A DNA stretch of 64,000 nt from Adineta ricciae (taxonomy: Eukaryota > Rotifera > Eurotatoria > Adinetida > Adinetidae): positions 44,394 through 108,393 of the forward strand of contig CAJNOJ010000322.1 in assembly GCA_905250025.1 (NCBI GenBank). The letters are read 5' to 3'. Shown in pieces: positions 26,124-64,000 of the stretch. Below the pieces are notes generated by a model. That model was not told the origin of the DNA, made no database searches, and worked only from the letters and a program-made list of their open reading frames with translations. The stretch's first letter is position 1. Each line of letters starts with the position of its first letter. A program made the translations under genes and the position numbers.

Positions 26124-29100
26124 ATGTCAAACAGACTCGTTTATGTTAATTTCAAGTTCAGAACTCTGTTCATTCTCAGACAACAAATACCATGCACCTC
26201 ATCAACATCATCATTCTCCACTCGTCCAAGAACCATCGATCCTGGTCAACAGATGAAGATACTCAATGACAAAAACCAGTTCAAACAAAGCATTGAGCTG
26301 TTCGAGAGAGAAAAGAAGAAGAACAAGGATCAACTGTCCAGTTTCATCATCGATCAAGCGTTGAAAGCATGTGTACAAGTGCGTGACTTTCGACGTGGAC
26401 AAGATATTCATCAGTTGGTTCAACATCGATTATCAGCTGATTCTTCGTTAGTGAAATCTCTTATCCATTTCTACAGTATGTTCATTGCGAATGAGATGAC
26501 GTTATCTTCAATGGTATTTCGTCGTAGTGCAATGTCATGATATGAACACAGCTGAATCTCTATTCCACATTTCGACAAACAAAACGGTGTATATTTGTAG
26601 TGTGATGATGAAGGGTTCGAAGTTTTGATCGGTGTTGTAGTGAAGGAACTGTGAGATGTGTTTATATTGTGTTTAGGATACATTGAAAATGGGAAGTCAG
26701 AGAAAGCGATTGAGATTTTCAAAGGGGTAGACAAACCTGATGCAGTTTTGATCACACTTTTGTTCAAGGCTTGTGCTCAAGTACCATCCGAGGAATCGTT
26801 GAACTTAGTGAAAAACATCTGGAAGAAGTACCAAAACACATCTCTTCTCGATAATCCTGCATTCAGTTCCCTACTGAACGTTTTAATGAAACATGGTAAC
26901 GTCGAGAGTGCAGAAAACGTGTTCAATCAACGATCGAACAAAGCACCATCAATGTATGGTGCGATGATGAAGGGTATCCGTTTCGTTCACTTTTTTTATA
27001 GCTTTACTGGCAACTATCGCTGCTGTAGGATACATAGATAACGAGATACCACAAAAAGCAATTGATCTATTCCAACAAGTTAAGAATCCCAACGGAATTC
27101 TCATTACACTCTTGTTCAATGCTTGCGCTCAACTGCCCTCACAACAATCACTGGATTTGGTGAAAAGCGTGTGGAAGAAGTATCAAAACACATCTCTTCT
27201 CGACGATCATGCGCTAACTGCTTTCATCGACGCTCTCATGAGGTGCGGCGATGTGAAAGACGCAGAGACACTTTTTGACCAATCAGCACACAAAGTGTTA
27301 CCTATGTATGGAGCAATGATGAAAGGTATCTTTTCGCTTTGTTTTTCCGAATAATTTTGCTGAGAACTATCACTTTTGTAGGATACATTGACAATACGCT
27401 GCCGGAAAAAGCGATTGATCTTTTCCAACTGGTGAAAAACCCGAATGAAATTCTTATCCTGCTCCTATTCAATGCATGTGCTCAACTACCCTCAGAGCAA
27501 TCGTTGAACTTAGTCAAGAATACCTGGAAACAATATAACACTAAACTCATCCGTAGCGAAAATACATTAACTTCCCTAATCGATGCTCTCATGAAATGTG
27601 GTGACGCCAAGAGTGCGGAATCTGTTTTCACTGAATCGTGGCACAAATCAATATCGATGTATGGAGCAATGATGAAAGGTATGTTTCCCCATCCGTTTAT
27701 CCATACGACTTTGCTAAATGCTGTCGTTTCTGTAGGGTACATAAAAAATGAAATGTCGACAAAAGCGATTGATCTTTTCAAACAAATCAAAGATCCGAAT
27801 GATGTTATCATCACACTACTCTTCAATGCTTGTGCTCAACTGCCATCGGAACAGTCGTTGAGCTTGGTGAAAGCCGTGTGGAAGAAGTATCAAAACGCGT
27901 CCCTTCTCCATGATCATGCGCTGACTGCTTTAATCGATGCTTTCATGAAGTGTAGAGATGTTAAGGGAGCAGAGACGATCTTCCACAAGTTACCACACAA
28001 AGTTCTACCCATGTATGGAGCTATGATGAAAGGTTGTATCTATCTTATTTAATTTCTCTGACAAGTTCTGTTGAAATCGTTTTCCATTAGGATATCTTCT
28101 TAACAAAACACCCAGCAATGCTCTTGATCTTTATCGTCAAATCAAAAGTAAGTCCGTTGTACAAAGACAGCTTCTCTGACTTTACTCTCTTCATACAGCC
28201 ATGAAAGAAACACAATCAGATTTCTTCATCTATCTACTTACAATCAATGCATCGGCACAGATTGCCATAGCATCCGAGTGTCAGGCCATTGTGGATGACA
28301 TTCCACAACATCTGCTTCTTAATATTCAGATTTGCAACTCCTTAATTGATATGTGGGTATGTCTTACATAAACAACGATGTGTGAACAGTTATGCATCTT
28401 TATTCATGGACTGTTCTAGGGTAAAGCTGGTTGTGTGCAAAAAGCTGAGCAAGTTTTCACCAATCTCTCATCGATCGATCAAGTCGGATATGCATCAATG
28501 AGTTAGTTCTGCTATTAATTTCGCCAGCACCACTCTCTCCCTACCCTTGATCTTTATTTCGTTGTTTAGTTCATGCTTATGGCATCAATGGAATGGGTGT
28601 GAAAGCAGTCGAACTTTTCCATAAGGTTCCACGATCGTTGCTTGCCGATTCCACTTATGTTTGTGTTCTCAATGCATGTTCACATGCTGGACTCGTCGAT
28701 CAAGCTCGTTCGATCTTCTCCAGCATCGAACCGAAAACAGAAAAGCATTATGCGGCAATGGTAATTGTCAAGTGATATATTCTGTTGCATCTGTCAAAGA
28801 TTACTCGGATGCTCGTTTTTCTTTTGAAGATGGATTGTCTAAGTCGAGGATCATTGTTCGATGAAGCACAACAGCTGATCGATCAATATGAACTACATCA
28901 TCCACCTTCACCTGTCATGTACAGTGAGTATGTTGTCACCAAGAACGACACTAGATGCATCGAAACGATCACTATGAGATGAGTTCTGTTTGAGAATATG
29001 GAGACAGTTCTCTTCATGATCGAAATGGATAAGTGAATGAATTGCTTTCATTGTAGTGGCATTACTGTCAGCTGCAAGAAATCGGAGAAACAAACAGTTG

Positions 29101-29774
29101 GTCGAAAACATTCACCAACGGATGAACAAGCTCTTTCCTCGCTCACCAGATTTGATCACATCAGCCACAGTGTTACTTGCGAATCTGTATGGATCGACCG
29201 GCGATATGAACAAAGCGTCGAGTATTCGATCCGAACTAAGTAGATCTGGTGCCAAGAAAAAGCCTGGTCTCAGCTGGACTGTAGTCAATGGTGAACTATA
29301 TGTAAGTGTTCCAAAGGGAATAATGTGAACTGATTAGTGTTGTTTAGCAATTTCTTGCTCACGATCGATCTCATCCACGAAGTGCCGAGATCTATGTGGA
29401 ACTGGAGAAGATCTCACGAGAACTGATCGAACGTGGTCATGAGTATGACTCGTCATGGATCACGCGACCACTTGCAGAAGATGAAACGATCGAATCGGTT
29501 CTTTGTGGACACAGTGAGAAGCTTGCAATCGCTTGGAACTTCGTGGCTAATGTCGACACAACATTCATTCAAATAACGAAGAACTTGCGTGTGTGTGGTG
29601 ACTGTCGTGAGTGATACTTTACTTGTCATTGTATTTTCGTGACCTTGTTTGCTTGTAGATCAGGCCACGAAACTGATCGCTGCTATTCGACGGTGTCGCA
29701 TAGTGATTCGTGATGCAAACCGAATTCATCATTTTGATCCGGATGGTCACTGTTCATGTAATGATTATTTCTGA
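26124..29774 (+). CDS. PLS-type PPR protein with C-terminal DYW-like deaminase domain (copy A)
   Basis: Spliced gene. Exon 1 (26124-26475) encodes a basic N terminus (FKFRTLFILRQQ…FSTRPR, mitochondrial-presequence-like) and the first PPR helices. After a small exon (26528-26614) come four 297-nt exons at 26677-26973, 27029-27325, 27382-27678 and 27736-28032. Each encodes one P-L-S triplet that begins GY(I)xN…KAI(E/D)(I/L)F and ends MYGAMMKG. Next are a further P-L-S set, an E-type region (KKPGLSWTVVNGELYQFLAH) and the DYW domain: CGHSEKLAIAW (HxE), KNLRVCGDCHQATK (CxxC), RDANRIHHF, CSCNDYF-stop. All exons are open and phases fit. In plants such proteins bind organelle RNA one repeat per base and the DYW domain deaminates C to U. 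The terminal Phe replaces Trp. Confidence 0.93.
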
Positions 29775-31607
29775 TCGATATGCATTTTTCTTTTTTTTGT
29801 TTTGTTGATAAAAGAGCGTCGTGCGTAGGGGATCGATAAAGTGATATTCGAATGAGAACCATCATCCGTCGTAGTCATAGTAGCTGCATGTCGTCCAGCT
29901 TTGATCATTTGTACAGCTTGAGTGTGTGACTGTTAACAAATCCATATGAGGAAATCTTTATATATCATTTGAACAAGAATCAGGATGGTCACTTAATGAT
30001 TCGATGCTTTTGATAACAGTGGCAAGTAGGAATCATAGTGCATGGTAAGAAAAGATCTCATAAAATTTCCTCCATGATTTGTCTCATCAAACATTCTTTA
30101 ACTAAATTTCTGTCTGGTCGTCAATGACGTAGTCTCGTTTTGAAGAAACTTTCGGACACACTATTCTAGCGTCGGTATGTATCAAGATACCCCGAACTTG
30201 TTGTCCTTCTGGAGAGGTGAGAAGCGAATATCGCGACGAAATTGTCATGTCTAGATGAATGCGAATAGATCTTGTCGTTTCGCTTTCGTCCTCGTTCATG
30301 TCTTAACCTACGGTCACGCTCTTATGATAAGGAGATTTTCTATTCCGATTACTCAGACGGCTATCGATGGACATGAATCATCATATCATCTGCGTTTTAA
30401 ACAGGCTTCATTGAAGTTTTATTAGTTACGACTGAAGGACCTTTTTAGTCGTTTTCTGTGAGTGAAAAGTGGAGAAAGGAAGATGACATGACAATCAACA
30501 AGGATTTAATGTGTTAGAAGAGACAAACACCCTCACCCAACAGAAATAGTATTAAGTTATGCGACAAAAAGACAACGAGAGGTAGAAATAATTGAATGAA
30601 TACTTAGATTCAAGTAAAATTCTGCTTCTTATTACACATCATCACACAATCTGTTTCGTCAAAACTATATTTAACTCAATGATTTAGGCGAAAAGAGACA
30701 TTCCATCATTTGACCTAATCAAGATTTTCAATGAAATAATCACATACATATCGTTCGATGGATGATGTTCTCCATTGAGTTTTGCTCAGTTGATAAAGAT
30801 TCATCTGACAACATATGGTCATCGAAATACGAATTAACACGCCTTAACATTTCAGCAAAGCTCTCTAACTGTTCAACTTCCTATACAAAGTTCGAGTGTT
30901 TCTGAAAGTAAAGCAACTTCCCCGAAGTTTCATCAAGATGAACTCCATCGACTGAACACAAATGATCATATATCTTTTACTACTTCACAAAAGATTTACT
31001 AACTACTAGTGCTATCTGTCGAAACGACGGCCTTCGTTTATTTCGTCTCAATCAATTAAAACTCGTTCTATACACCGTGTGGAGACGGATCACAGCCTAT
31101 GGATGAATTGTGACTCGAACGAGGCACTTAGCTATTTATATTGCTACACGAAGATGGACATACATTTCTTTCGATGAGATCTCATCTTGTATCTTACCAT
31201 ATTCTAACTATTCTTGGTGATACTTATCCATTGTCTTACGTCAACTGATCCTGTGCTGTGTACTCTTACAAACTTTCTCAAAAGGCATAATATCTCTCAA
31301 ATTGAAATCAAAAGAGGTAGCAGAACGAGGCACACAAAGTAGTCTAAGAATAGGTTGTTGTTTTCTTGATTTCGACCGTATGGAAATAAACGAATGTTCG
31401 CAATAATAACGATTACACTACTCTTCAGAAACTTCTCTTCTACTTAAATAACTCGGAATTCAAACTGCGAAGTGTGAAGAGAACACGTCATGAGTCATGA
31501 CGATTCGATAGAAATATTAAATAGGCCGCGAAGCACTGATACCCGATTTTCATTTTCAGAATTTATACATCATTTATTACAACTAGTTCACTAATGGTAT
31601 CCCAATC
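29775..31607. other. Spacer between PPR genes A and B
   Basis: No gene seen. About 29.80-29.96 kb (just after gene A) and 30.46-30.53 kb closely resemble the downstream flank of gene C (46.0-46.16 and 46.69-46.77 kb), so these pieces were duplicated together with the gene. The last 100 bp contain TTTTCATTTTCAG shortly before the gene B start, a possible acceptor. Confidence 0.6.
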
Positions 31608-34600
31608 ATGTCGAACAGACTCGTCTATGTTAATTTCAAGTTCAAAACTCTGTTCATTCTCAGACAACAAATACCATGCATATCATCCACATCACCATTC
31701 TCCACTCGTCCAAGAAACATCGATCCTGGTCAACAGATGAAAGTACTCAATGACAAAAAGCAGTTCAAACAAACCATTGAGTTGTTCGAGAGAAAAAAGA
31801 AGAAGAACAAGGATCAACTGTCCAGTTTCATCATCGATCAGGCGTTGAAAGCATGTGTACAAGTGCGTGACTTTCGACGTGGACAAGATATTCATCAGTT
31901 GGTTCAACATCGATTATCAGCTGATTCTTCGTTAGTGAAATCTCTTATCCATTTCTACAGTATGTTCATTGCGAATGAGATGACGTTATCTTCAATGATG
32001 TTTCGTTGTAGTGCAATGTCATGATATGAACACAGCTGAATCTCTATTCCACATTTCGACAAACAAAACGGTGTATGTGTGTAGTGTAATGATGAAGGGT
32101 TCGAAGTTTTGATCGGTGTTGTAGTGAAGGAACTGTGAGATGTATTTATATTGTGTTTAGGATACATTGAAAATGGGAAGCCCGAGAAAGCGATTGAGAT
32201 TTTCAAAGGGGTAGACAAACCTGATGCTGTTTTGATCACACTTTTATTCAAAGCTTGTGCTCAAGTACCATCAGAGGAATCGTTGAATTTAGTGAAAAAC
32301 ATCTGGAAGAGGTACCAAAACACACCTCTCCTCAATTCCTACGTCTTGACATCTCTGATTGATGCTCTAATGAAATGTGGGGATGCCAAGGATGCAGAAG
32401 CTGTTTTCAACGGCCAGTCAACTAAAGTGTTACCTATGTATGGAGCAATGATGAAAGGTATTCTTTTTAGTCAGTTATTGCTATCATCTAGCTCATTTCT
32501 CCTGTTCTTTTAGGTTATATAGATGACGAGATGCCTCAGAAAGCGATTGATGTTTTCCAACAAGTCAACGAACCCGATGCTGTTCTAATCACACTTTTAT
32601 TCAAAGCTTGTGCTCAAGCACCATCTGAAAAATCGTTGGACTTGGTGAAAAGTATCTGGAAGAAGTACCAAAAGACACCTCTCCTCAATTCCTACGTCTT
32701 GACATCTCTGATTGATGCTCTTATGAAATGTGGGGACGTGAAGGAAGCAGAGATGATTTTCAACAGACTCCCAACTAAAGTGTCATCTGTGTATGGAGCA
32801 ATGATGAATGGTACTCTGCTGCTTTATCTGATTATAGTTTTCTTCACATGTGCCATTTCCTATTTGCAGGATATATCAAACATATGATGCCAGAGAAAGC
32901 GATTGAGGTTTTCAAAGGACTAGAAAAACCTGATACTGTTCTGATCATACTGTTGTGCAAAGCTTGTGCTCAGGTACCATCTGAGGAATCGTTGAACCTC
33001 GTGAAGAACATCTGGAAACAGTATCAAAACACACCTCTTCTCAATCCATACATCTTGACGTCTCTAATTGATGCTCTAATGAAATGTGGAGACGTCAAGG
33101 ACGCAGAGGCAGTTTTCAACGGATTCTCAACTAAAGTGTCATCGATGCATGGAGCCATGATGAAAGGTATTCCTTTTAGTCACTTATTTCTATGATCTAT
33201 CTCATTTGCACTGTCTTTTTAGGTTATATAGATAACGAGATGCCGCAGAAAGCGATTGATCTTTTCATGCAAGCCAATGAATCTGATGAAATTTTGGTCA
33301 CACTTTTGTTCAAAGCTTGTGCTCAAGTGGCATCAGAAGAATCACTGAACTTGGTAAAAATTATTTGGAAACAATATAACGCTAAAATTGTCCAAAGCGA
33401 AAGTACACTAACCTCCCTTATCAATGCTCTCATGAAATGTGGCGACGTCAATAATTCAGAAACTGTTTTCGCCGAATCGCGACACAAATCGTTATCGATG
33501 TATGGAGCAATGATGAAAGGTATGCTTTTTGTTCACTGTTTTCATATGAGTCTATCCACTTCCAGCGTTTTTCAGGATACATTGAAAATGAAATGTCGGA
33601 AAAAGCGATTGATCTTTTCAAACAAGTCGAAGATCCCCGTGAAATTATCATCACACTACTCTTCAATGCTTGTGCTCAACTGCCTTCACAACAATCGTTG
33701 AGTTTGATCAAAACCGTGTGGAAGAAGTATCAAAACACGGCTCTTCTCCATGAACATGCGCTGACTGCCTTAATCGATGCTTTCATGAGGTGTGGGGATG
33801 TTAAGGGAGCAGAGACGATCTTCCACAAGTTACCACACAAAGTTCTACCCATGTATGGAGCTATGATGAAAGGTTATTCATTGTTTTCATCGTGCTCAAG
33901 AAACTCATTTGAAACATTTCATTAGGATATCTTCTCAATAAAACGCCAAACAAGACTCTTAATCTCTACCAGCAAATCAAAATTAAGCGTTTCATACCAA
34001 ATATTTTCATTCTGTTCAGTCTTTTCATTTAGATATCAAAGCAACACAGTCAAATTTCGTCATTTATCTACTTGCAATCAATGCATCGGCACAAGTCGCC
34101 ATAGCATCCGAATGTCAGGCTATTGTGGACGAAATTCCACAACACATCGTTTCTAATAGCAAAATATCTAACGCTCTCATAGATATGTGGGTAAGTCTTA
34201 TATAAACAACGACGATACGTGAACAGTTAAACGTCTTTATTCATAAACCGTTCCCAGGGTAAAGTTGGTTGTGTGCAAAAAGCTGAGCAAGTTTTCACCA
34301 ATCTCTCATCGATCGATCAAGTCGGATATGCATCAATGAGTTAGTTCTGCTATTAATTTCGCCAGCACCACTCTCTCCCTACCCTTGATCTTTATTTCGT
34401 TGTTTAGTTCATGCTTATGGCATCAATGGAATGGGTGTGAAAGCAGTCGAACTTTTCCATAAGGTTCCACGATCGTTGCTTGCCGATTCCACTTATGTTT
34501 GTGTTCTCAATGCATGTTCACATGCTGGACTCGTCGATCAAGCTCGTTCGATCTTCTCCAGCATCGAACCGAAAACAGAAAAGCATTATGCGGCAATGGT

Positions 34601-35612
34601 AAGTGTTAAGTGATATATTCTGTTGCATCTGTCAAAGATGACTTTGATGCATGTTTTTCTTTTGAAGATGGATTGTCTGAGTCGAGGATCATTGTTCGAT
34701 GAAGCACAACAACTGATCGATCAATATGAACTACATCATCCGCCTTCACCTGTCATGTATAGTGAGTATGTTGTCACCAAGAACGACACTAGATGCATCG
34801 AAACGATCACTATGAGATGAGTTGTGTTTGAGAATATGGAAACAGTTCTCTTCATGATCGAAATGGATAAGTGAATAAATTGCTTTCGTTATAGTGGCAT
34901 TACTGTCAGCTGCAAGAAATCGGAGAAACAAACAGTTGGTCGAAAGCATCCACCAACGGATGAACAAGCTCTTTCCTCGCTCACCAGATTTGATCACATC
35001 AGCCACAGTGTTACTTGCGAATCTGTATGGATCGACCGGCGACGTGGACAAAGCGTCGAGTATTCGATCCGAACTAAGTAGATCTGGTGCCAAGAAAAAG
35101 CCTGGTCTCAGCTGGACTGTAGTCAATGGTGAACTATATGTAAGTGTTCCAAAGGGAATAATGTGAACTGACTGGTGTTGTTTAGCAATTTCTTGCTCAC
35201 GATCGATCTCATCCACGAAGTGCCGAGATCTATGTGGAACTGGAGAAGATCTCACGAGAACTGATCGAACATGGTCATGAGTATGACTCGTCATGGATCA
35301 CGCGACCACTTGCAGAAGATGAAACGATCGAATCAGTTCTTTGTGGGCATAGTGAGAAGCTTGCAATAGCTTGGAACTTCGTGGCTAATGCCGACACAAC
35401 ATTCATTCAAATAACGAAGAACTTGCGTGTGTGTGGTGACTGTCGTGAGTGATACTTTACTTATCATTGTATTTTCGTGACCTTGTTTGCTTGTAGATCA
35501 GGCCACGAAACTGATCGCTGCCATCCGACGGTGTCACATAGTGGTTCGTGATGCAAACCGAATTCATCATTTTGATCCGGATGGTCACTGTTCATGCAAT
35601 GATTATTTCTGA
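31608..35612 (+). CDS. PLS-type PPR protein with C-terminal DYW-like deaminase domain (copy B)
   Basis: Same design as copy A with five P-L-S exons, each exactly 297 nt: 32161-32457, 32514-32810, 32870-33166, 33223-33519 and 33576-33872. The N terminus (MSNRLVYVNFKFKTLF) and the C-terminal half from about 34.25 kb are nearly identical to A, including introns. The middle P-L-S part diverges, and one exon ends MYGAMMKG-like with N for K (VYGAMMNG). The DYW domain keeps CGHSEKLAIAW, CGDCH, RDANRIHHF and CSCNDYF. No frameshift or stop is seen. With the largest repeat number it would be predicted to read the longest RNA target. Probably mitochondrial by its Arg/Lys-rich, acid-free N terminus (inferred). 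Confidence 0.93.
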
Positions 35613-38223
35613 TCGATGTGTAGTTTTGTTTTGTGTTTTGTTGATAAAAGAATCGTATGTATTGAATGCTCGTGTCATTATACAGCTACACTTGTCTTGA
35701 AAACGCATTTCTACATCGAAGACTGATTTATCAAACAGTAACAGCCACCCGGTCAGTTGTTGGTGCCCTGCCAGATTAATACTAGACTGCACCTTAGACA
35801 AAAGAATGTCACATGAAATGAATGTTGAAACGATCGATGCATTATTTGTCAGAGTTCGTTCGTGTGTTGAATGTATTAGCCGATAAGTGTATTGAATTGT
35901 TTGAAATGGACCACATAAGAATATATAACCAATTCACTCAAACTCGGCAAATATGATCTAAAATGGAAATAATAATCAAAAAAGCAATAGTCATCAGTGA
36001 AACATGATGATCAGTTGAACTGTTCAAGATAGAGACTTCTCAATTCTATCGAATCATTTGCAACAACGATCGTTACTGTACCGAGAAACATGTATCGACA
36101 GATATTATTAAAAGAATTTAGTAGAGCCATCGATGTGAAGTTAGCATCACAGACTTACGAATGCTCCACTCCGGGAATGATTCATCAATCGAGGCCGGAG
36201 ACTGAGTTGTGACGCTCGCTCTCAGCTATTTCCGCTATATCTATAATCTCAAGAGGTTCCTTTTCATAGAGAGATTAACAATAGTTGACTATATTTGAGG
36301 GTGCTATTCCTTTTAAGAAATCAAACTTTTGTGTTCTGGAATTTTTCGAAAAGGTAACAAACACTTTCTATTTTTCATTCTCTGAAATCAAATAACCAGT
36401 ATTAACTAGTGCCGGACCATTTAATTTAATTCGACTTACTTAACGGTCAACAAAACGAGGAAAATCCGTTAACGTTAATATGAACTCTTTGGCTGCGGAC
36501 GTTTTGTCAAGGAAATTAAATTTCTTTTTTTCTATATATTTATTCGTAAATTAATTTCCACTTCTACTTTATTAAAAATCTTTGTAGATATCTATGTTTA
36601 AAAATTAATATAAAAAGTCTCTGATAAATGCTTCCATGAAAACTGATGTCATGCAGGAGCCTATACGTTTCAAAGTGCTAAAAATCACAGTGATCTTATA
36701 TAAGGTTACCCGCAGTCAGACGGTTAAAATTCCAGATTAACCTTACAGTACACGTTTGGAACAACTTTATCAAACTAGAAAGATTTTTAAAACGGGCTTG
36801 TCGAATGTTCGTCACTGAGACTATTCGACATAGTATCATCTCCTGAAAGTAAAAAAAGAGTCAATTGTTGACTGTAAAACACAGCTAGCACTCAGAAACT
36901 ATTCACTAACAAATGGCTAATTGGTTCGTTTCATGAAAAAAGAACGATCTTCACCTTCTATTATCTCGAATGTGTGACAAAATGTCATGACTCAGCTGAC
37001 GACGAGTACCAAGCGTAGTGCCTTATTTGTTTTTCAAAGCGTTTGAATACGTTCCACGCTAGGAGAATTTTTTCAGAAAAGGGTTGGCGAATCTGAAAGA
37101 CGAGCGTTACTTTTGATTATTAGGGAAAAATCAAAACCCTTAAAGCAAAAAATTCAATGAGCAATTAGCTAAATATGCTTATTTGAATAGATGTATGCAA
37201 AATATGTAGAAGCTTGGATATCGATGTAAATCTGGAACGACGGACTAAGAATAAGTCTTGTCCATAAAAAAGAGTAAATTCGATGAAAAAATCAAATTCT
37301 ACATCAGATAATAATACTCTAATGGACTCATTCGTATGGTCGGGACTTATTTTCTATATAAAGTTTTCTGCAATCCTTTGCTTTGATGTAATAACCTCAC
37401 ATGGATGTAGGTCCACTGATTGATTTTAAACCGTATTCTAATTCAATCATTGTGAATATATTTTTCTTCAGTTTAGTTATTGAAAAGCGTGAGAAGCACG
37501 AGAATGAGCAGCAGAAAAGTCGTTCCAACAGGACACTGTCACATACATCCTAATTACGCAGAGAATAAGACTTCTAGATTATTGCGAATACCCAAGCATG
37601 ACATATCTTACTATATCATGTATTTATCATTCGAATTAGTACTCAAGTATGATAGTATAACTTTACGAAGGCGTGTTTGTATTGATGTGATGACAACAGA
37701 CACTCGCCGCAGTTCCTTTTTCACCGATCACGAAAATGACAAATAAACCTCAGAGGGAAAAACGAATGGGGGAAGGTTCGATTTTCTCGTTCTACAGGTG
37801 CCACATCGCCTACGCGAGAAATATGATAGTGGAATAATTGTTTTTTTTTACAAATACAGTGTGCAAATATGAGTAACTATGTATCGTCATGTCTTATTCA
37901 CAAAAGAATGTCCCACTATCGAATGGGTTAGATAATCATGATATATCGTTGATCAATCTAAATCTGTTCCGTCGTATCGAATCTGTAGTGTTATCAGCTA
38001 GTAATTCTGTTCGCTATATGTTCCACACATGTAATTCAATATCTCCGCACTAAAATATACTTCTATATATATATATGACAACTGATTTATGCTTTTTAAC
38101 ATCGAAGACGTTCTCCAGATATTCTAAGTTAACTCAAATCTGTGTTTGGACTAATTTATCTCGTATTGTTTATTCGTCTATTATCAAAAAAGTTAGTTCT
38201 TTTTTTAACAAACAAGTATCAAA
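35613..38223. other. Gene-free stretch between PPR gene B and the chitinase
   Basis: 2.6 kb of AT-rich sequence without a spliced frame or recognisable repeat. It does not share the flank found after copies A and C. A single ORF at 37480-37746 has no supporting features. Confidence 0.5.
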
Positions 38224-39458
38224 ATGACAAAGTTCATAGTGATTTATATTCTCTTACTTGTTGGCTTATGTGTCAATGGTGACGATTCCAACTTTAATGG
38301 AGATGATCATCTAGCCAGTTTGTTTCGTCGACGCGCTGCTCGTTCTGCCTGTCCCGATCGAAATCATTGTCGTTCGAAATGGGGCTACTGTGGAACGGGA
38401 TCAGATTACTGTGGTGCTGGCTGCCAAGGTGGTCCTTGTCAAGACGGTTCGAGTGGTAATAGTGGATCTGTCTGTCCCGATCGAAATCATTGTCGTTCGA
38501 AATGGGGCTATTGTGGAACAGGACCCGATTATTGTGGGACAGGATGCCAGGGGGGCCCATGCTCAGGAGGTGACAACAATGGCAATGGTAATCAAGGTGG
38601 TTCATCAGGTCAGATAAATGCACAGAACTTTGCGTGTGTATTCAAAGACCTCAATGCGGGAACCCGCAATCAACGCTTTCATGGTCTACAAGCAACGGGA
38701 TGGAAACCAGCTAATGCTGAAGAAGCTGCTGTATTTCTTGCACATGTTTATCATGAGACAGATGGCCTAAGAACAATGAGAGAATATTGTGCACCAGGTA
38801 ACAATTATTTAGATCAAAGATAGACTATTGAGATTACAATGAGTGAATAAGTATTCATCCATGCTTCATTGACCTATTGATAATTCTTTGATAATCGGCG
38901 CTCATACCGAACTAGTTGAAAGAAACGAGTTGTTTTGCAAGGAGTAGCTGGAATTAATGAATCTGCTTCGATAGGATGTTGAGAGTTTTATCTGTATACA
39001 TCATATTGAATATCAGAGTTGAAAACTGGAATATATAGATTTTTTCTTTTCAAATAATAGGGTGTGGACATGCTTATCAAGGTGGGCCGTCAAGTTGGTG
39101 TAAAACAACAGGTCCGCCCGGAAAACTTTATTATGGTCGTGGTTGGTTTCAATTATCATGGCCATGCAACTATGATGCAGCTGGTAAAGCGCTTGGTGTT
39201 GATCTTTTGAGTAATCCAGACTTGGTGGAAACCAATGATAAATTAGCCGTGAGTACAGCTCTCTGGTTTTACAGAACACAAGGAATGTCTGAACCAGCTC
39301 GACGCGGTGATTTTGCTGCTACAACGCGTATTATCAATGGACATCTGGAATGTAATGGTGGATCTGGTTATAGTCATCAACTGAGTCGAGTAGAAACATA
39401 TAAACGTGTTCGTCAATGTTTTAATCTCGGACCACCTAAAATCAATCCAATTTGCTAG
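38224..39458 (+). CDS. Secreted GH19 chitinase with two hevein-type chitin-binding domains
   Basis: Two exons with a 263-bp intron (38798-39060), long for this window; 323 aa. Signal peptide MTKFIVIYILLLVGLCVNG. Two CBM18 domains follow, residues 43-72 and 84-113, each with six Cys (CPDRNHCRSKWGYCG…DYCG…C…C) and almost identical even in DNA. A Gly/Asn/Ser linker leads to the GH19 catalytic domain. Candidate catalytic acids are Glu178 in AHVYHETDG and Glu187 in MREYC, a 9-residue spacing as in the bacterial (loop-poor) GH19 type. YYGRGWFQLSWPCNYDAAG corresponds to the substrate-binding YYGRGP..L(S/T)WN(Y) motif. GH19 hydrolyses beta-1,4-GlcNAc chains; roles in feeding on or defence against fungi, or in own cuticle/jaw turnover, are possible. 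Rare in animals, so horizontal origin is likely. Confidence 0.93.
38349..38565 (+). repeat. Tandem near-identical hevein-domain coding repeat
   Basis: The two chitin-binding domain segments (about 38349-38442 and 38472-38565) differ at only a few bases. They are separated by a short Gly/Ser linker. This indicates a recent internal duplication or conversion. Confidence 0.8.
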
Positions 39459-42400
39459 AAAAACTGTTTTTACGCTTCTTTATCTTTTCATCTTTTTCCT
39501 TAACGTCGGGTTTGCCGAAGCTTTTTTTCTGTTGTTGTTTATTTTCTTTTACGAAAAAAAGAGTTATGACGTCGTCAATACGATCGTTCAAATACAAAGA
39601 GCTTGTTTGCATAATCCAACTGCGAATGATAGCTATATCTCAAGTTCAAAATAAACCTCGGGGTGAAAATGAGGTTGATATGTGAACATCTGAGTTTGAA
39701 ATGGAATATTGGTGAAAAATTAGTTTGTGCAGTTCTTTTGCATAAGGAGATATAACCAAATTTACCGTTTTGTGTTATACATGATGAGAAAGAGAAAAAC
39801 AGCAGAGGGAGAAATTCGTAGTGTATTGATATTTTTATGTTCTGCAGCTTTCCAATGTGTGGCGCTTCCGACGTCGATATTTCTCAATAGTCATCGAATT
39901 ATCTAGCTAGTATAAGTTTAAAAAGATGAACAAGATTCGAAGAAAATCACGATTAATCATTCCGCTTTTAATAAAATCATATCTTGTGTCATAATCATGA
40001 TGAAATATATGATTTAATCGTCGATTTTCTCAACGTGGATGAATTTGAAATAAAATAAAACAAGTATTCTATTTGAACATGGCTGTTCTTTTCATTTTGT
40101 CATAGTTAGTCAATATTCTTGTCTTAATGAAGGAAACTACACAGAGTAAACGTCATTTAGTAATTATAAATGAGTATGATATAACGAAAGAAAATATTTG
40201 TTTTCATCCTGTATCGTTCAGAGAAAAAGCTGAAGGAATTTAGGAATCTCTATCATATAAACGATTTGGATTTACTTTTATCATTGTTAAACATGAGTAA
40301 AAGGATGATATTTTCATTCTTTACTTTCTGTGAGAGTGGGTGAAATTTCATCCCGATATCCTCAACCAACCCTCCATCTGAAAAATCAACTCTATATCGA
40401 CCTTCCTCAGGACGTGGGGAAGCTCCATGCAAAGTTTAACGACCATAAATATTACAGAAACTGAATACACAACGAACAGACAGATAGACAACCGTTCTTC
40501 TCTATGTATTAAGGTCAGCGAATCCTATCGGTCAGCTTTATAGGTTGCTTGTAGCGTGTACAGAATACTCATGTACAGGTAGAACATATGGATTGTTGCC
40601 TATGAGCGCTTAGAAGGTCTTCGCTACCGATTTTCTCTATTTTTGAAATCCTGCAATCCTATCAATCAGTTGCATAGATTGTCTGTAGCAAGCATGCTGT
40701 TCTTTTTCTTCAGAACAAAGTGGATGTCGACTATCCTCTGAACTTTAGAATAGTACCTTAGAAAGTTTGGCACCGACAGATATTACAGCGACTGAATGCA
40801 TAGCGAATAATCAGATAAGCTTTCTTCTTCAAATATATACATTAATTGACATTAACAAGAAAAAGTATCTCTGATAAATCGACATAGCTACAAATGCAAT
40901 TGAATGAATACAAAACACGAATCTGATTTAGTTTCAAAGCATAACATCAGATATCGTCACAGTATCAAAAAGTAAAACTAAATTCAGACTCATCAAACAA
41001 CTTATCGCAAAGTCTCTCAAAGAAAAACATCATTTTATCGACCATCAAACAAAAGTTTCATTTCCTTTCACATGTTCGGTGAATTTTTGAATGTCATCGA
41101 GCGAATAAAGGTTCAAACCGGCTTCAACTCTATGAGAACAATCTAATAATCAGATCATGGTTCATTCAGTAAACATTTACTTCTTCGTTTGGTGAAAACA
41201 TGTTCATTTGTACAAACAGAGATTCAGAACTCTTACATTACTACGAAATCGACATCGGTTGCCAATAGCGATCTAATCGATGGACCACCCTGAGAATAGG
41301 TGTTGCTGCTTTATTATGCATCCAATGGAATAGCAAGAGCTTCTTTTATCCTATATTCACTCCTAGAAATACCTCGTGTAGACTCTCTTTAATCAGAAAC
41401 TGATCATGAAAAGTATGATAATCAAGGATGCGCAGGCTTTATGCATTCGATTCGTACTTGTTCAATTTCTACCAACATCGTTTTTCTCTCGTGAGATGTT
41501 TATCTCTCTCCATCTACTTGGCTATTGTCGTAATCGTCTTACACCTGACTCATTCTGTAACATATTCTTCGTCATGAAAGATTGATCCTACAACACAAAA
41601 CTATGATATAACTGATGAAGCTAATTCTCTCAGTTCCTCAATTTGTACACACATGACTACAAAATTCGTTTGAGGATGCGTAGTCGTCAAACTAAACATG
41701 AGCAAATCAAGTCACTTTGGACGTCACTCGTCCATCTCCCTATACAATACCTGCGTATTTCTGAAGAACATCCATTCATTCACAACTCAAACACGTCTAA
41801 TGCAGATCATTCGCGATAAACTCTATCGATTGAACAGACTCCATGCCAAAACATGAAATTACAAGTCTCAGTCATATGAAAACATTCGCCCTTACGATAA
41901 TTAATGCAGACTGACTTTATAGCAGAAGAAACGAAGAGTTATGTGCTTTATTCGCTCTCTGCTGTGCCAGATTCTAGGATTTCGAGCGTGAGAAAGGACT
42001 GATCTCTGTGTAAGTGATACAGGCTAAAGAGCACCTATTCAGACGAAGTTTCTGCTAGTATAAGTCAAAACAGCCAAAGACGTGAGCAGAATCGCACCCA
42101 TCTCATGGACTATTTCACCAGTTTTCATACTGGATTGCTCACTGACTACGAGCGCCAACTGTCGACATGACTCTTTTTCTTTCTTCAATTTCGATGAATG
42201 ATCGTTCGCTGCAGTATATGGAGACTCTAAGGACCAAGCAATTAGGATTTGAATGCCCTAGTTATCATTAAATGCAAGACTACACACTCTCTTCACTTTC
42301 ACAACATATTCTGTGTTCGTCTTTTCTCTGTATTGCTGATCCAATATCTTCGATTTCCATATTCTAAGCTAGTTGCCCGGCTCTCTTTCTCTTGTAGCTC

Positions 42401-42662
42401 GATCGCGAATCCATATGACTCGATTTTCCAGTCAAAGCTCGAAGATTCTCGAAACGAAAAGACGTTTGAAGTCGTATTTTCTGACTAAGTCTCTCCAGCG
42501 TTGTGCTATACTTATATCACTGTTAACCTTCCATGGTCAGTATATAAATTAATCATAAGCTATTGACGATGATCTTTTCAGCTGATAATGAACCCTGAAC
42601 ATCAGATTCTAGTTCTAGATTTACTCCTTGTTTATCATAGTAAATCCAACACACTCAACATC
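39459..42662. other. Gene-free stretch before PPR gene C
   Basis: 3.2 kb, no gene seen. It contains a degenerate repeat pair at about 40.43-40.85 kb (see separate entry). An open frame upstream of and continuous with the gene C start (from 42588) is judged not to be part of the conserved protein. Confidence 0.5.
40430..40850. repeat. Diverged duplicated segment
   Basis: ATATTACAG-aaactgaata and ATATTACAG-cgactgaatg, each followed by a related GA-rich stretch, occur at about 40.45 and 40.78 kb. A second related pair (AATCCTATC…CAG…ATAG/AGGTTG…TGTAGC) lies at about 40.52 and 40.66 kb. Old, decayed copies of an unknown repeat. Confidence 0.4.
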
Positions 42663-45600
42663 ATGTCCAACAGATTCGTTCATGTTAATTTCAACTTCCG
42701 AACTCTGTTCATTCTCAGACAACAAACACCATGCATATCATCCACATCACCATTCTCCACTCACCCACGAACCATCGATCCTGGTCAACAGATGAAGATA
42801 CTCAATGACAAAAACCAGTTCAAACAAACGATTGAGTTGTTCGAGAGAGAAAAGAAGAAGAACAAGGATCAACTGTCCAGTTTCATCATTGATCAGGCGT
42901 TGAAAGCATGTGTACAAGTGCGTGACTTTCGACGTGGACAAGATATTCATCAGTTGGTTCAACATCGATTATCAGCTGATTCTTCGTTAGTGAGATCTCT
43001 TATCCACTTCTACAGTATGTTCCTTGCGAATGCGATGATGTTATCTTCAATGGTGTTTCGTCGTAGTGCAATGTCATGATATGAACACAGCTGAATCTCT
43101 ATTCCACATTTCGACAAACAAAACGGTGTATATTTGTAGTGTGATGATGAAGGGTTCGAAGTTTTGATCGGTGTTGTAGTGAAGGAACTGTGAGACGTGT
43201 TTATATTGTGTTTAGGATACATTGAAAATGGGAAGCCCGAGAAAGCGATTGAGATTTTCAAAGGGGTAGACAAACCTGATGCAGTTTTGATCACACTTTT
43301 ATTCAAAGCTTGTGCTCAAGTACCATCCGAGGAATCGTTGAACTTCGTGAAAAACATCTGGAAAAAGTACCAAAACACATCTGTTCTTGATAATCATGCG
43401 CTAACTGCTTTCATCGACGCTCTCATGAGGTGCGGCGATGTGAAACACGCAGAGACACTTTTTGATCAATCAAAATACAAAACGTTACCTATGTATGGAG
43501 CAATGATGAAAGGTGTCTTTTCTCTTCGTTTTTTTCCGAATAGTTTTACTGAGAACTTTTACTTTTGTAGGATACATATATAATGAGCTACCGCGGAAAG
43601 CGATTGATCTTTTCCAACTAGTGAAAAATCCGAATGAAATTCTTATCCTGCTACTGTTCAATGGGTGTGCTCAACTACCCTCGGAACAATCGTTGAATTT
43701 AGTCCAGAAAATCTGGGAACAATCGAAAGTCAAATCTCTTCGCAGCGACAACTTATTGACCTCTGTGATCGATGCTCTCATGAAATGTGGTGATATCAAG
43801 AGTGCGGGAGTCGTTTTCGCTGAATCACCAAGCAAATCGATATCGATGTATGGAGCGATGATGAATGGTATGCTTCTCCATCAGTTTATCCATACGATTT
43901 TGCTGAATGCTGTCGCCTCTGTAGGATACATAAAAAATGATATGTCGAAGAAAGCGATTGATCTTTTCAAACAAATCAAAGACCCCAATGAATTTATCAT
44001 CACGCTACTCTTCAATGCTTGTGCGCAACTGCCATCGGAACAGTCGTTGAGCTTGGTCAAAGCCGTGTGGAAGAAGTATCAAAACGCGTCTCTTCTCAAT
44101 AATCATACGTTTACGGCTTTAATCGATGCTTTCATGAAGTGTAACGATATTAAGGGAGCAGAGGCGATCTTCCACAAGTTACCACACAAGGTTCTACCCA
44201 TGTATGGAGCTATGATGAAAGGTTGTATCCATCTTATTTAATCTCTCTGACAAGTTCTGTTGAAATCGTTTTCCATTAGGATATCTTCTTAACAAAACAC
44301 CCAGCAATGCTCTTGATCTTTATCATCAAATCAAAAGTAAGTTAGTTGTGCAAAAACATCTCTTCTCACTTCACTCTCTTCATCCAGACATGAAGGAAAC
44401 GCAGTCGAATCTCGTCATTTATTTACTTGCGATCAATGCATCGGCACAGATTGCCATGGCATCCGAATGTCAGGCCATTGTGGATGACATTCCACAGCAT
44501 CTGCTTCTTAATATTCAGATTTGCAACTCCTTAATTGATATGTGGGTATGTCTTACATAAACAACGATATGTGAACAGTTATGCGTCTTTATTCATGGAT
44601 TGTTCTAGGGTAAAGCTGGTTGTGTGCAAAAAGCTGAACAAGTTTTCACCAATCTTTCATCCATAGATCGAGTTGGCTATGCATCAATGAGTTAGTTCTG
44701 CTATTAATTTCACCAACACCACTCTCACCTTTCTCTCCCTCTTTATTTCTCTGTTTAGTTCATGCTTATGGCATCAATGGAATGGGTGTGAAAGCAGTCG
44801 AACTTTTCCATCAGGTTCCACGATCGCTGCTCGCCGATTTCACTTATGTTTGTGTTCTCAATGCATGTTCGCATGCTGGACTCATCGATCAAGCTCGTTC
44901 GATCTTCTCCAGCATCGAAGCGAAAACTGAAAAGCATTATGCTGCAATGGTAATTGTCAAGTGATATATTCTGTTGCATCTGTCAAAGGTGACTTTGATG
45001 CATGTTTTTCTTTCGAAGATGGATTGTCTGAGTCGAGGATCATTGTTCGATGAAGCACAACAACTGATCGATCAATATGAACTACATCATCCACCTTCAC
45101 CTGTCATGTACAGTGAGTATGTTGTTGCCAAGAACGACACTAGATGCATCGAAACGATCACTATGAGATGAGTTGTGTTTGAGAATATGGAAACAGTTCT
45201 CTTCATGATCGAAATGGGTGAATGAATGAATTGCTTTCGTTGTAGTGGCATTACTGTCAGCTGCAAGAAATCGGAGAAACAAACAGTTAGTCGAAAACAT
45301 TCACCAACGGATGAACAAGCTCTTTCCTCGCTCACCCGATTTGATCACATCAGCCACAGTGTTACTTGCGAATCTGTATGGATCGACCGGCGATATGAAC
45401 AAAGCGTCGAGTATTCGATCCGAACTAAGTAGATCTGGTGCCAAGAAAAAGCCTGGTCTCAGCTGGACTGTAGTCAATGGTGAACTATATGTAAGTGTTC
45501 GAAAGCGAATAATGTGAACTGACTGGTGTTGTTTAGCAATTTCTTGCTCACGATCGATCTCATCCACGAAGTGCCGAGATCTATGTGGAACTGGAGAAGA

Positions 45601-45963
45601 TCTCACGAGAACTGATCGAACATGGCCATGAGTATGACTCGTCATGGATCACGCGACCACTTGCAGAAGATGAAACGATCGAATCCGTTCTTTGTGGACA
45701 TAGCGAAAAGCTTGCAATCGCTTGGAACTTCGTGGCTAATGCCGACACAACATTCATTCAAATAACGAAGAACTTGCGTGTGTGTGGTGACTGTCGTGAG
45801 TGATACTTTACTTATCATTATATTTTCATGACGTTGTTTGCTTGTAGATCAGGCCACGAAACTGATCGCTGCCATCCGACGATGTCACATAGTGGTTCGT
45901 GATGCGAACCGAATTCATCATTTCGATCCAGATGGTCAATGTTCATGTAATGATTATTTCTGA
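42663..45963 (+). CDS. PLS-type PPR protein with C-terminal DYW-like deaminase domain (copy C)
   Basis: Third paralogue, with three 297-nt P-L-S exons (43216-43512, 43571-43867 and 43925-44221). The start at 42663 (MSNRFVHVNFNFRTLF) aligns with A and B. An in-frame ATG at 42588 would add 25 residues, but its reading frame passes a CTTTTCAG acceptor-like site, so the shorter form is preferred. The last part (from 44.6 kb) has the same exon order: VHAYGINGMGVKAVELF, SRGSLFDEAQQLID, KKPGLSWTVVNGELY, CGHSEKLAIAW, CGDCH, RDANRIHHF, CSCNDYF-stop. No disruptions are seen. The first P-L-S exon is a mosaic: its 5' half resembles module 1 of A and its 3' half resembles module 2 of A (DNHALTAFIDALMRCGDVK). 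Confidence 0.93.
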
Positions 45964-63782: not shown

Positions 63783-64000
63783 TCAGAAATAATCATTGCA
63801 TGAACAGTGACCATCCGGATCAAAATGATGAATTCGGTTTGCATCACGAACCACTATGTGACACCGTCGGATGGCAGCAATCAGTTTCGTGGCCTGATCT
63901 ACAAGCAAACAAGGTCACGAAAATACAATGATAAGTAAAGTATCACTCACGACAGTCACCACACACACGCAAGTTCTTCGTTATTTGAATGAATGTTGTG
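63783..64000 (-). CDS. PPR-DYW protein copy D, C-terminal end only (cut by right edge)
   Basis: Inverted relative to copies A-C. The terminal exon (63783-63898) encodes the end of the DYW domain (QATKLIAA…IHHF…GHCSCNDYF-stop). A 52-bp intron lies at 63899-63950. The preceding exon is cut at the window edge (TTFIQITKNLRVCGDC). The sequence around the stop matches copy B more closely than A or C. Whether the whole gene is intact cannot be seen. Confidence 0.9.

Follow-up and report, generated by a model that had tools for sequence, protein, structure and literature searches.

A DYW-PPR gene family in the bdelloid rotifer Adineta ricciae and its probable role in mitochondrial C-to-U RNA editing

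The bdelloid rotifer Adineta ricciae possesses PLS-class PPR genes with a DYW deaminase domain, three of them intact and spliced and one a cut copy, in the 64-kb stretch of DNA analysed here (the window), which forms the terminal part of a 108,393-bp contig. Judging from the sequences, we regard it as likely that their products are encoded in the nucleus, imported into mitochondria and act there as C-to-U RNA-editing factors like those of the PLS-DYW type in land plants. The co-occurrence of a large DYW-PPR family with C-to-U-correctable mitochondrial DNA (mtDNA) suggests that an animal probably edits its mitochondrial RNA in the manner of plants. The enzyme family itself had been reported previously, and it is already known in bdelloids according to PMC4202320; what is new here is the target side, i.e. 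the C-to-U-correctable signature in mtDNA.

Window genes and their domains

The models of genes 1-3 are exact spliced translations (Table 1). Three complete DYW-PPR genes had been proposed in the initial annotation, and this was borne out to the nucleotide, position 26124 being the ATG of gene 1 and position 45963 the stop of gene 3. The fourth copy, expected at the right edge, is present as well, with final exons only and on the minus strand (DYW profile match at C322:108179-108304, minus strand, contig coordinates). The 13 introns of gene 1 are all GT-AG and 46-133 nt long, without in-frame stop.

Table 1. Positions of the DYW-PPR genes and their parts in the window
Feature	Position	Strand	Remarks
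Gene 1, PLS-E-E+-DYW PPR protein	26124..29774	+	942 aa, 14 exons; exact spliced translation, Pfam
Gene 1, predicted mitochondrial presequence	26124..26237	+	6 Arg/Lys and no Asp/Glu among the 38 N-terminal residues
Gene 1, four 297-nt exons	26677-26973, 27029-27325, 27382-27678, 27736-28032 (span 26677..28032)	+	one P-L-S triplet each
Gene 1, E+/DYW end, final 2 exons	29348..29774	+	HSE, CGDC, HHF, CSCNDYF
Gene 2, PLS-DYW PPR protein	31608..35612	+	1043 aa, 15 exons; exact spliced translation
Gene 2, five 297-nt PLS-triplet exons	32161..33872	+	
Gene 3, PLS-DYW PPR protein	42663..45963	+	843 aa, 13 exons; exact spliced translation
Gene 3, three 297-nt PLS-triplet exons	43216..44221	+	
Gene 4, final exons of another, closely similar DYW copy	~63783..64000	-	bounds estimated; truncated by contig end

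Among the window genes, Pfam scoring (including E and E+ motifs) covered gene 1, in which PPR, E_motif, E+ motif and DYW_deaminase were all found above curated cut-offs. Its tandem PPR motifs were recognized by both PPR (5e-53) and PPR_2 (1e-34), again above cut-offs, and its DYW_deaminase domain is full-length (102 bits, positions 1-93 of 93). Genes 1, 2 and 3 all have the HSE, CxxC and CSC motifs (3/3). Thus the P-L-S/E/DYW architecture with intact motifs, as described in the initial annotation, holds for genes 1-3 (E scored on gene 1), except that the terminal triplet is DYF and not DYW: all three proteins end with CSCNDYF, with Phe in place of Trp, and the other spliced models mostly end with DYF or DHF. 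Gene 1 has a public protein model, P0002. Its residues 512-946 could be aligned with 9kfx, a synthetic PPR-DYW protein of solved structure (E 2e-107 for the whole sequence), and its residues 811-944 with the DYW domain of Arabidopsis OTP86 (7o4e), with catalytic and zinc residues conserved.

The gene family and its N termini

A genome-wide search with the DYW profile yielded 127 exon-level matches, which merged to at least 81 gene-level places on 48 contigs, while 0 of 14 control genomes were matched. The cluster in the window is therefore not due to chance, and the family expansion assumed from it is supported. E_motif was matched 24 times genome-wide, 23 times above cut-off. In a crude motif scan, HSE, CxxC and CSC were all found in at least 32 of the 52 DYW places read (of 81), a floor value, given that three of the 20 failing places (L005-L007) score 87-89 bits with a full domain; the fourth window copy fails because it is cut off. 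The median dN/dS of the DYW ends was 0.17 (64 usable of 100 pairs) and no value exceeded 1, which shows purifying selection on this part of the protein. MORF/RIP partner proteins (PF21864), known from the angiosperm-type editosome, gave 0 matches in the genome and likewise 0 in the control genomes.

Residues 600-942 of gene 1 are 100% identical to an Adineta ricciae protein, by which the initial concern that the contig could be plant or protist contamination is already contradicted and its animal origin supported. Three Cryptomeria proteins and one other non-bdelloid-named protein (35-36% identity) do occur among the best 120 listed relatives, but these also comprise matches at 52-100% identity in Adineta and Rotaria assemblies. 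Together with the short introns, the neighbouring Yippee/Mis18-type and LON-domain frames and the spread of the 81 DYW places over 48 contigs, this makes contamination extremely improbable. As for the origin of the family, PMC4202320 favours horizontal gene transfer; in that paper, the DYW proteins of rotifers group with those of Naegleria at a posterior of 0.93. In monogonont rotifers, a DYW family is not expected.

Basic N termini, noted initially as a sign of organelle import, recur in the family: 45 of 108 bdelloid DYW-PPR N termini (41.7%) are acid-free with a net charge of at least +3, compared with 2% of internal Met-start control segments (n=540). Their composition resembles that of mitochondrial presequences, and import can be predicted from it. 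One could also imagine that the DYW-PPRs have expanded for defence or regulation and that the RNAs they edit or bind, such as those of transposons, are located in the nucleus or cytosol; at least 81 places as opposed to few predicted mitochondrial sites, as well as the modular triplet exons of the window genes, would fit such a role. However, the presequence-like N termini and the mitochondrial signature described below speak for other targets, and we hold this explanation to be quite unlikely. A subtelomeric arms race is not indicated either, as 16 of the 55 DYW loci on contigs of known length lay within 25 kb of contig ends versus 11.9 expected, i.e. without clear excess.

C-to-U-correctable positions in mitochondrial DNA

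Departures at conserved residues were counted in cob and cox1 of a bdelloid-like set, which consists mostly of metagenomic proteins and in which R at W may represent AGR under another translation table. In this set, 39 distinct departures were C-to-U-correctable and 5 were of the reverse kind, whereas other animals had 7 and 11, respectively, in the same test (p=1.4e-4). The ratio of correctable to other change types was 39:41 in the bdelloid-like set and 7:105 in other animals (p=1.4e-11). When the five ambiguous R-at-W cases were left out, the counts were 34 versus 5 (p=3.4e-4); when Phe/Leu exchanges were left out as well, they were 22 versus 2, with 2 versus 5 in other animals (p=0.002). 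At 47 invariant Phe columns, 25 of the 26 bdelloid-like departures were Ser, Leu or Pro (S11 L13 P1 M1), while 7 of 19 were correctable in other animals (p=1.8e-5). This test was robust at thresholds of 0.75-0.90; at 0.95, there were too few events (p 0.07-0.19). Site 273 of cob is F, S, L or P across scattered lineages, which would match the codons TTT, TCT, CTT and CCT, A. ricciae being the one species whose DNA was read. For A. vaga, its public cob leads to L127F, S219F and S273F as predicted edits. No candidate sites were found in cob of the named Habrotrocha, Macrotrachela and Rotaria rotatoria. When viral contigs were screened for mtDNA of bdelloids, 46 loci of 33-44% identity were recovered, all of them too distant to be bdelloid, and they were left out of the counts.

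The mtDNA of A. ricciae (C55:464485-478067) is a circle, as judged from a 121-bp terminal overlap. For this species, PMC3426538 obtained its genes from transcriptome libraries and deposited sequences under JX183989-JX184083 and JW861079-JW861112, of which the JW series presumably comprises those derived from transcriptomes; PMC3701536 names the transcripts HE687510-HE716431. It contains 16 identified tRNA genes; an Rfam search of it gave no match. Relatives mostly have Leu, Phe, Phe and Phe at the positions of its codons TCA17, TCT273 and CTT356 of cob and CTT370 of cox1, respectively, which gives four candidate C-to-U sites (cob S17L, S273F and L356F; cox1 L370F). In comparison with 86 relatives at 80% consensus, the consensus is restored by 3 of the 71 possible C>T changes in cob; the other matching changes were I303L and M97I, the latter in our reading a translation-table artefact. 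At 70% consensus, the same three C>T changes were accompanied by 8 others, several of them probably table artefacts. For cox1, the comparison with 17 near relatives yielded one C>T change (L370F) and five other changes. Against non-rotifer animals, 1 of 71 C>T changes in cob and 2 of 137 in cox1 were restoring, not above other changes. For A. ricciae alone, a C>T excess is thus seen only in cob and only against near relatives. Inspection of cox2, cox3, nad1 and nad5 against solved structures by eye revealed no clear site. From the bdelloid-like set and from A. ricciae cob compared with near relatives, it appears that the organelle genome carries C in need of correction.

As cob and cox1 (867 codons) contain only four candidate sites versus at least 81 DYW places, the DYW-PPR genes seem to outnumber predicted sites. 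Two further candidates were rejected: cox1 A373V, where Ala is also present in 17/17 nearest relatives and position -1 is G, and editing of all CTT codons, since CTT (14) is not clearly above CTA (11).

Bdelloids are clonal, and the departures might be ordinary, mildly deleterious changes that became fixed through drift in the absence of sex, with DYW-PPRs doing something else. The few sites in A. ricciae, and the lack of C>T excess in cob or cox1 against non-rotifers, would agree with this. Drift, however, predicts mixed replacements, in contrast to the almost exclusive S, L or P at invariant Phe, and reverse changes were rare. Silent C is also rare: only 48 of 1800 pyrimidine-ending codons have a final C, so that T-to-C mutation bias does not explain the signature. 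We consider drift unlikely. The function in mitochondrial RNA editing proposed at the outset, on the other hand, gains support from the C-to-U-correctable departures, as far as can be told from DNA and protein sequences.

Editing model, target recognition and known systems

According to the editing model, the PPR array would bind a transcript upstream of the C to be edited, which the DYW zinc deaminase at the C-terminus would convert to U. Bdelloid mitochondrial mRNAs whose genes have C in place of a required U would in this way be repaired, with changes such as those of Ser, Leu or Pro codons into codons for Phe or Leu. For this model, we infer import, RNA binding, deamination and the assignment of factors to sites.

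At position 5 of the P motif, Gly was present in 325 of 573 bdelloid triplets versus 0 of 38 in four plant-type proteins, and the plant PPR code may therefore not apply as it stands; the last PPR residue is often D or N in bdelloid triplets. Target prediction by the PPR code, suggested in the initial annotation, could be run, but the four candidate sites were not clearly singled out from 625 coding Cs when matched to 27 A. ricciae arrays (rank test, p ~0.05-0.10). The unusual code would also suit mitochondrial RNA-binding proteins that stabilise or cut transcripts and retain the deaminase only for structure. In favour of such a role, ribonuclease activity is reported to be linked to a plant DYW protein (PMC10318007). 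Yet the catalytic Glu and the zinc-binding motifs are conserved in genes 1-3 and the C-to-U-correctable mtDNA would be left unexplained, for which reasons we find such a role improbable.

Editing factors of the PLS-DYW type in land plants (OTP86; moss PPR56) share with the rotifer proteins the PPR triplets, E, E+, the HxE..CxxC deaminase, the CSC zinc motif and a presequence-like N terminus, and OTP86 and gene 1 also have the gating region in common (by alignment). Moss proteins of this kind have been assayed for editing in E. coli (PMC6397227). The differences lie in the animal host, the length of the P motif (~31 aa by eye, window genes), the prevalent Gly at P position 5, the DYF or DHF C-terminus, and the many short introns with one triplet per 297-nt exon in the window genes. 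With the DYW-PPRs of Naegleria and Acrasis, PMC4202320 indicates shared scattered non-plant occurrence, lineage-specific expansion and mitochondrial editing sites, the rotifer sites being predicted. The same paper gives 12 DYW proteins for Acrasis, as opposed to at least 81 places in A. ricciae, and C-to-U editing as reported for Acrasis and verified at two Naegleria sites. Among the matches listed in the literature searched, no paper describing targets of rotifer DYW-PPRs was found.

In animal mitochondria, known C-to-U editing comprises one placozoan cox1 site and marsupial tRNA-Asp, and we know of no DYW-PPR family connected with either. Common to these cases and A. ricciae is a C-to-U change in an animal organelle, predicted from DNA in the latter; while the placozoan and marsupial sites are isolated, bdelloids combine a multi-site signature with a matching enzyme family. 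If the signature reflects editing, animals would possess a plant-type organelle editing system. It would offer an independent case for studying the co-evolution of editing and its factors once genes have been transferred, and would supply RNA-engineering with modular RNA-binding editors from nature. Moreover, conceptual translations of bdelloid mitochondrial genes would contain errors, affecting phylogeny and COI-based taxonomy of bdelloids.

On balance, we incline to the fuller view that bdelloids run plant-type multi-site mitochondrial C-to-U editing with a DYW-PPR family that was acquired by horizontal transfer, has expanded greatly and has its own dialect (Gly at P position 5) and a footprint evolving by gain or loss of single exons, each a PLS triplet reading three nucleotides. 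The window contains 12 exons of exactly 297 nt, each corresponding to one PLS triplet, and those of gene 1 have phase 1 on both entry and exit. Since each triplet is one 297-nt phase-1 exon, exon gain or loss in the window subfamily would make the RNA footprint longer or shorter by 3 nt. The 297-nt exons 1-3 of gene 2 are 79-84% identical among themselves, which suggests that exons were duplicated within the gene. With a 99-aa profile of the triplet, derived from these genes, 719 matches were obtained in bdelloids.

Structure and integrity of the DYW-type PPR genes

The window forms the right end (positions 44394-108393) of the 108,393-bp contig C322 in a 130.46-Mb assembly. The initial annotation described a cluster of plant-like PPR/DYW genes, and this cluster is real: genes 1-3 are intact and copy 4 is truncated at the contig end. 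Pfam analysis of gene 1 revealed PPR repeats, E and E+ motifs and a complete DYW deaminase, all above curated cut-offs. Over its last 343 residues, the gene 1 product shows 100% identity with the A. ricciae protein P0002, the public model of this gene. Residues 512-946 of P0002 could be aligned with a structurally solved synthetic PPR-DYW protein, and residues 811-944 with Arabidopsis OTP86, with HSE, the Lys before CxxC, CGDCH, HHF and CSC kept; roles of HxE, CxxC, the Lys and the C-terminal zinc site are described for OTP86 in passages of PMC7611903. By the features tested, the encoded proteins are PLS-class DYW-type PPR proteins.

Coordinates of the features discussed (window positions unless a contig is named)
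Feature	Position	Strand	Description
Gene 1	26124-29774	plus	14 exons, 942 aa, 13 GT-AG introns of 46-133 nt
Gene 2	31608-35612	plus	15 exons, 1043 aa, intact
Gene 2 missing donor	33989-34032	plus	TT where gene 1 has its GT donor
Chitin-recognition frame	38209-38823		lies between genes 2 and 3; contains two chitin-recognition domains
Gene 3	42663-45963	plus	13 exons, 843 aa, intact
Leucine-rich-repeat frame	53780-54643	minus	repeated units near-identical
Gene 4		minus	further DYW copy, interrupted by contig end
mtDNA	C55:464485-478188		attached to a nuclear contig of the same assembly via a single N

Internal exons of 297 nt, phase 1 in and out, were present four times in gene 1, five times in gene 2 and three times in gene 3. 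Each encodes one 99-aa P-L-S triplet and so, by general PPR logic, should read three nucleotides. Three such exons of gene 2 share 79-84% identity, pointing to an origin by exon duplication within the gene. Outside the window subfamily, exons of this kind are uncommon among the gene models built (one each in five of them). Judged by eye, the P motif has a short length of about 31 aa. Gly occupies position 5 of this motif in 325 of 573 bdelloid triplets, versus 0 of 38 triplets from four plant-type proteins (three from Cryptomeria and one unnamed). D or N is frequent at the last PPR position, a feature shared with plants.

Gene 2 apparently uses a GT a few bases downstream of its missing donor, with the frame preserved. 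In P0002 and in P0006, another public A. ricciae protein from the window's contig, at least one exon is mis-spliced (e.g. YALLATIAAVGY instead of YGAMMKGY), and public bdelloid DYW models therefore need care.

Across the A. ricciae genome, 127 exon-level DYW matches collapsed to 81 places spread over 48 contigs, both counts being lower bounds. HSE, CxxC and CSC occurred together in at least 32 of the 52 places readable in a crude scan of the 81, a floor value, as at least three of the motif misses are probably spurious. Over the last 150 codons, the window trio differ by dN 0.003-0.015 and dS 0.071-0.116; among the 64 usable of 100 pairs, median dN/dS was 0.17 and never exceeded 1. The DYW-PPR loci are genes under selection, not debris.

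Candidate editing sites in A. ricciae mtDNA

A 121-bp repeat closes the mtDNA into a 13,583-bp circle, and its junction with the nuclear contig is an assembly misjoin; the nuclear side carries a multicopper-oxidase-like frame (named by eye). Twelve long frames were taken as the usual set of protein genes: cox1, cob, cox2, cox3, nad1, nad4 and nad5 were identified by match to relatives or solved structures, and the remaining five names were assigned by eye. C is scarce (877 of 13,589 bases counted, and last in only 48 of 1800 codons ending in a pyrimidine), so that it persists mainly where it matters.

Cytochrome b of A. ricciae was compared with 86 rotifer-like sequences for departures fixable by one base. 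Three of 71 possible C>T changes restored the 80% consensus, namely S17L (TCA), S273F (TCT) and L356F (CTT). The other single-base fixes were I303L and M97I, the latter read as a translation-table artefact (ATA = Ile in other databases). At 70% consensus, the same three C>T changes appeared together with eight others, several of them probably table artefacts. In cox1, compared with near relatives, one C>T (codon 370) stood beside five other changes. This codon is CTT in A. ricciae, while Phe occurs in all 103 other animals and in 14 of the 17 near relatives; it lies between two histidines that serve as heme ligands. Against distant animals only, no C>T excess was seen in A. ricciae (cox1 2/137, cob 1/71). 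Inspected by eye against solved structures, cox2, cox3, nad1, nad4 and nad5 gave no clear site, and nad4 one weak candidate (Pro where others have Ser). A. ricciae alone thus yields four sites (three in cob, one in cox1), and the weight rests on the wider test. When 27 A. ricciae PPR arrays were matched by the PPR code to 625 coding Cs, these four did not stand out clearly (rank test p about 0.05-0.10).

Departures across bdelloid-like cob and cox1

The wider test covered departures from residues conserved in both bdelloid-like relatives and other animals, scored as correctable (mendable by C>T) or reverse; most relatives are metagenomic proteins assigned to bdelloids by similarity, and codons were read directly for A. 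ricciae only. Correctable and reverse kinds of departure numbered 28 to 6 in cob (87 rotifer-like rows) versus 4 to 3 in 34 other-animal rows, and 25 to 2 in cox1 (18 rows) versus 3 to 8 (103 rows). When only full-length sequences with an identity to A. ricciae of 73% or more were used, 66 of 87 cob and 16 of 18 cox1 rows remained and the count was 39 to 5, versus 7 to 11 in other animals (Fisher p=1.4e-4, counting distinct site-changes with shared ancestry not fully removed, as in all these tests). Set against other kinds of departure, the ratios were 39:41 and 7:105 (p=1.4e-11). Five Arg-at-Trp cases may represent AGR codons under another table; without them the count was 34 to 5 (p=3.4e-4), and without all Phe/Leu exchanges as well, 22 to 2 versus 2 to 5 (p=0.002).

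Ser, Leu and Pro at Phe positions are unaffected by the AGR issue. At 47 invariant Phe columns, bdelloid-like departures were S 11, L 13, P 1 and M 1, versus L 7, Y 7, I 2, M 2 and V 1 in other animals (p=1.8e-5). This result was stable at thresholds of 0.75-0.90 (p 4.6e-6 to 0.01); at 0.95 events were too few (p 0.07-0.19). Codon 273 of cob (KPEWYF) reads F 57, S 6, L 2 and P 1 in the bdelloid-like set, scattered over the tree, and Phe (30/34) or Leu (4/34) in other animals. The bdelloid-like residues would follow from TTT, TCT, CTT and CCT codons, all of which C-to-U editing would turn into Phe. Codon 280 of cob reads L 55, S 9 and P 2, whereas all 34 other animals have Leu there. Among named species, A. 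vaga cob showed L127F, S219F and S273F, and Rotaria rotatoria cox1 showed T245I and S410L (own numbering) plus Leu at the 370 site. Philodina citrina showed one departure, S279L, at a looser threshold only, and no correctable one was seen in cob from named Habrotrocha, Macrotrachela and R. rotatoria.

Predicted location and role

DYW proteins were already known from rotifers, reportedly through a 2013 survey. They are also treated in parts of PMC4202320, which cover Adineta ricciae and Philodina roseola and group the rotifer proteins with Naegleria. No report of rotifer mitochondrial editing was found in the literature searched, longer result lists being covered in part, and a term search within the R. 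rotatoria mitogenome paper gave no "editing" in the text covered (PMC2784805). According to sections of PMC3426538, mitochondrial genes of A. vaga, Habrotrocha constricta and Macrotrachela came from amplified DNA and those of A. ricciae from transcriptome libraries, so that for A. ricciae a DNA-RNA comparison is feasible with public data.

The first 25 residues were acid-free with a net charge of at least +3 in 41.7% of 108 DYW-PPR proteins (those of the 120 relatives listed that were taken as bdelloid and Met-starting), and in 2% of 540 internal segments beginning with Met from these proteins. This composition fits mitochondrial import, no proof in itself. The mechanism proposed in the initial annotation is the best explanation and has gained target-side evidence from mtDNA, and the window proteins are quite probably mitochondrial C-to-U editing factors. 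At least 81 DYW places face a handful of predicted sites per gene; the surplus may reflect more sites in other mitochondrial genes, in rRNA or in non-coding RNA, or different targets of the family.

In precomputed Pfam lists, two public PPR-DYW models, P0028 (A. ricciae, on a 629,800-bp contig) and P0065 (A. steineri), are fused to an OTU domain and to methyltransferase-type domains; these fusions are either real or neighbouring genes joined.
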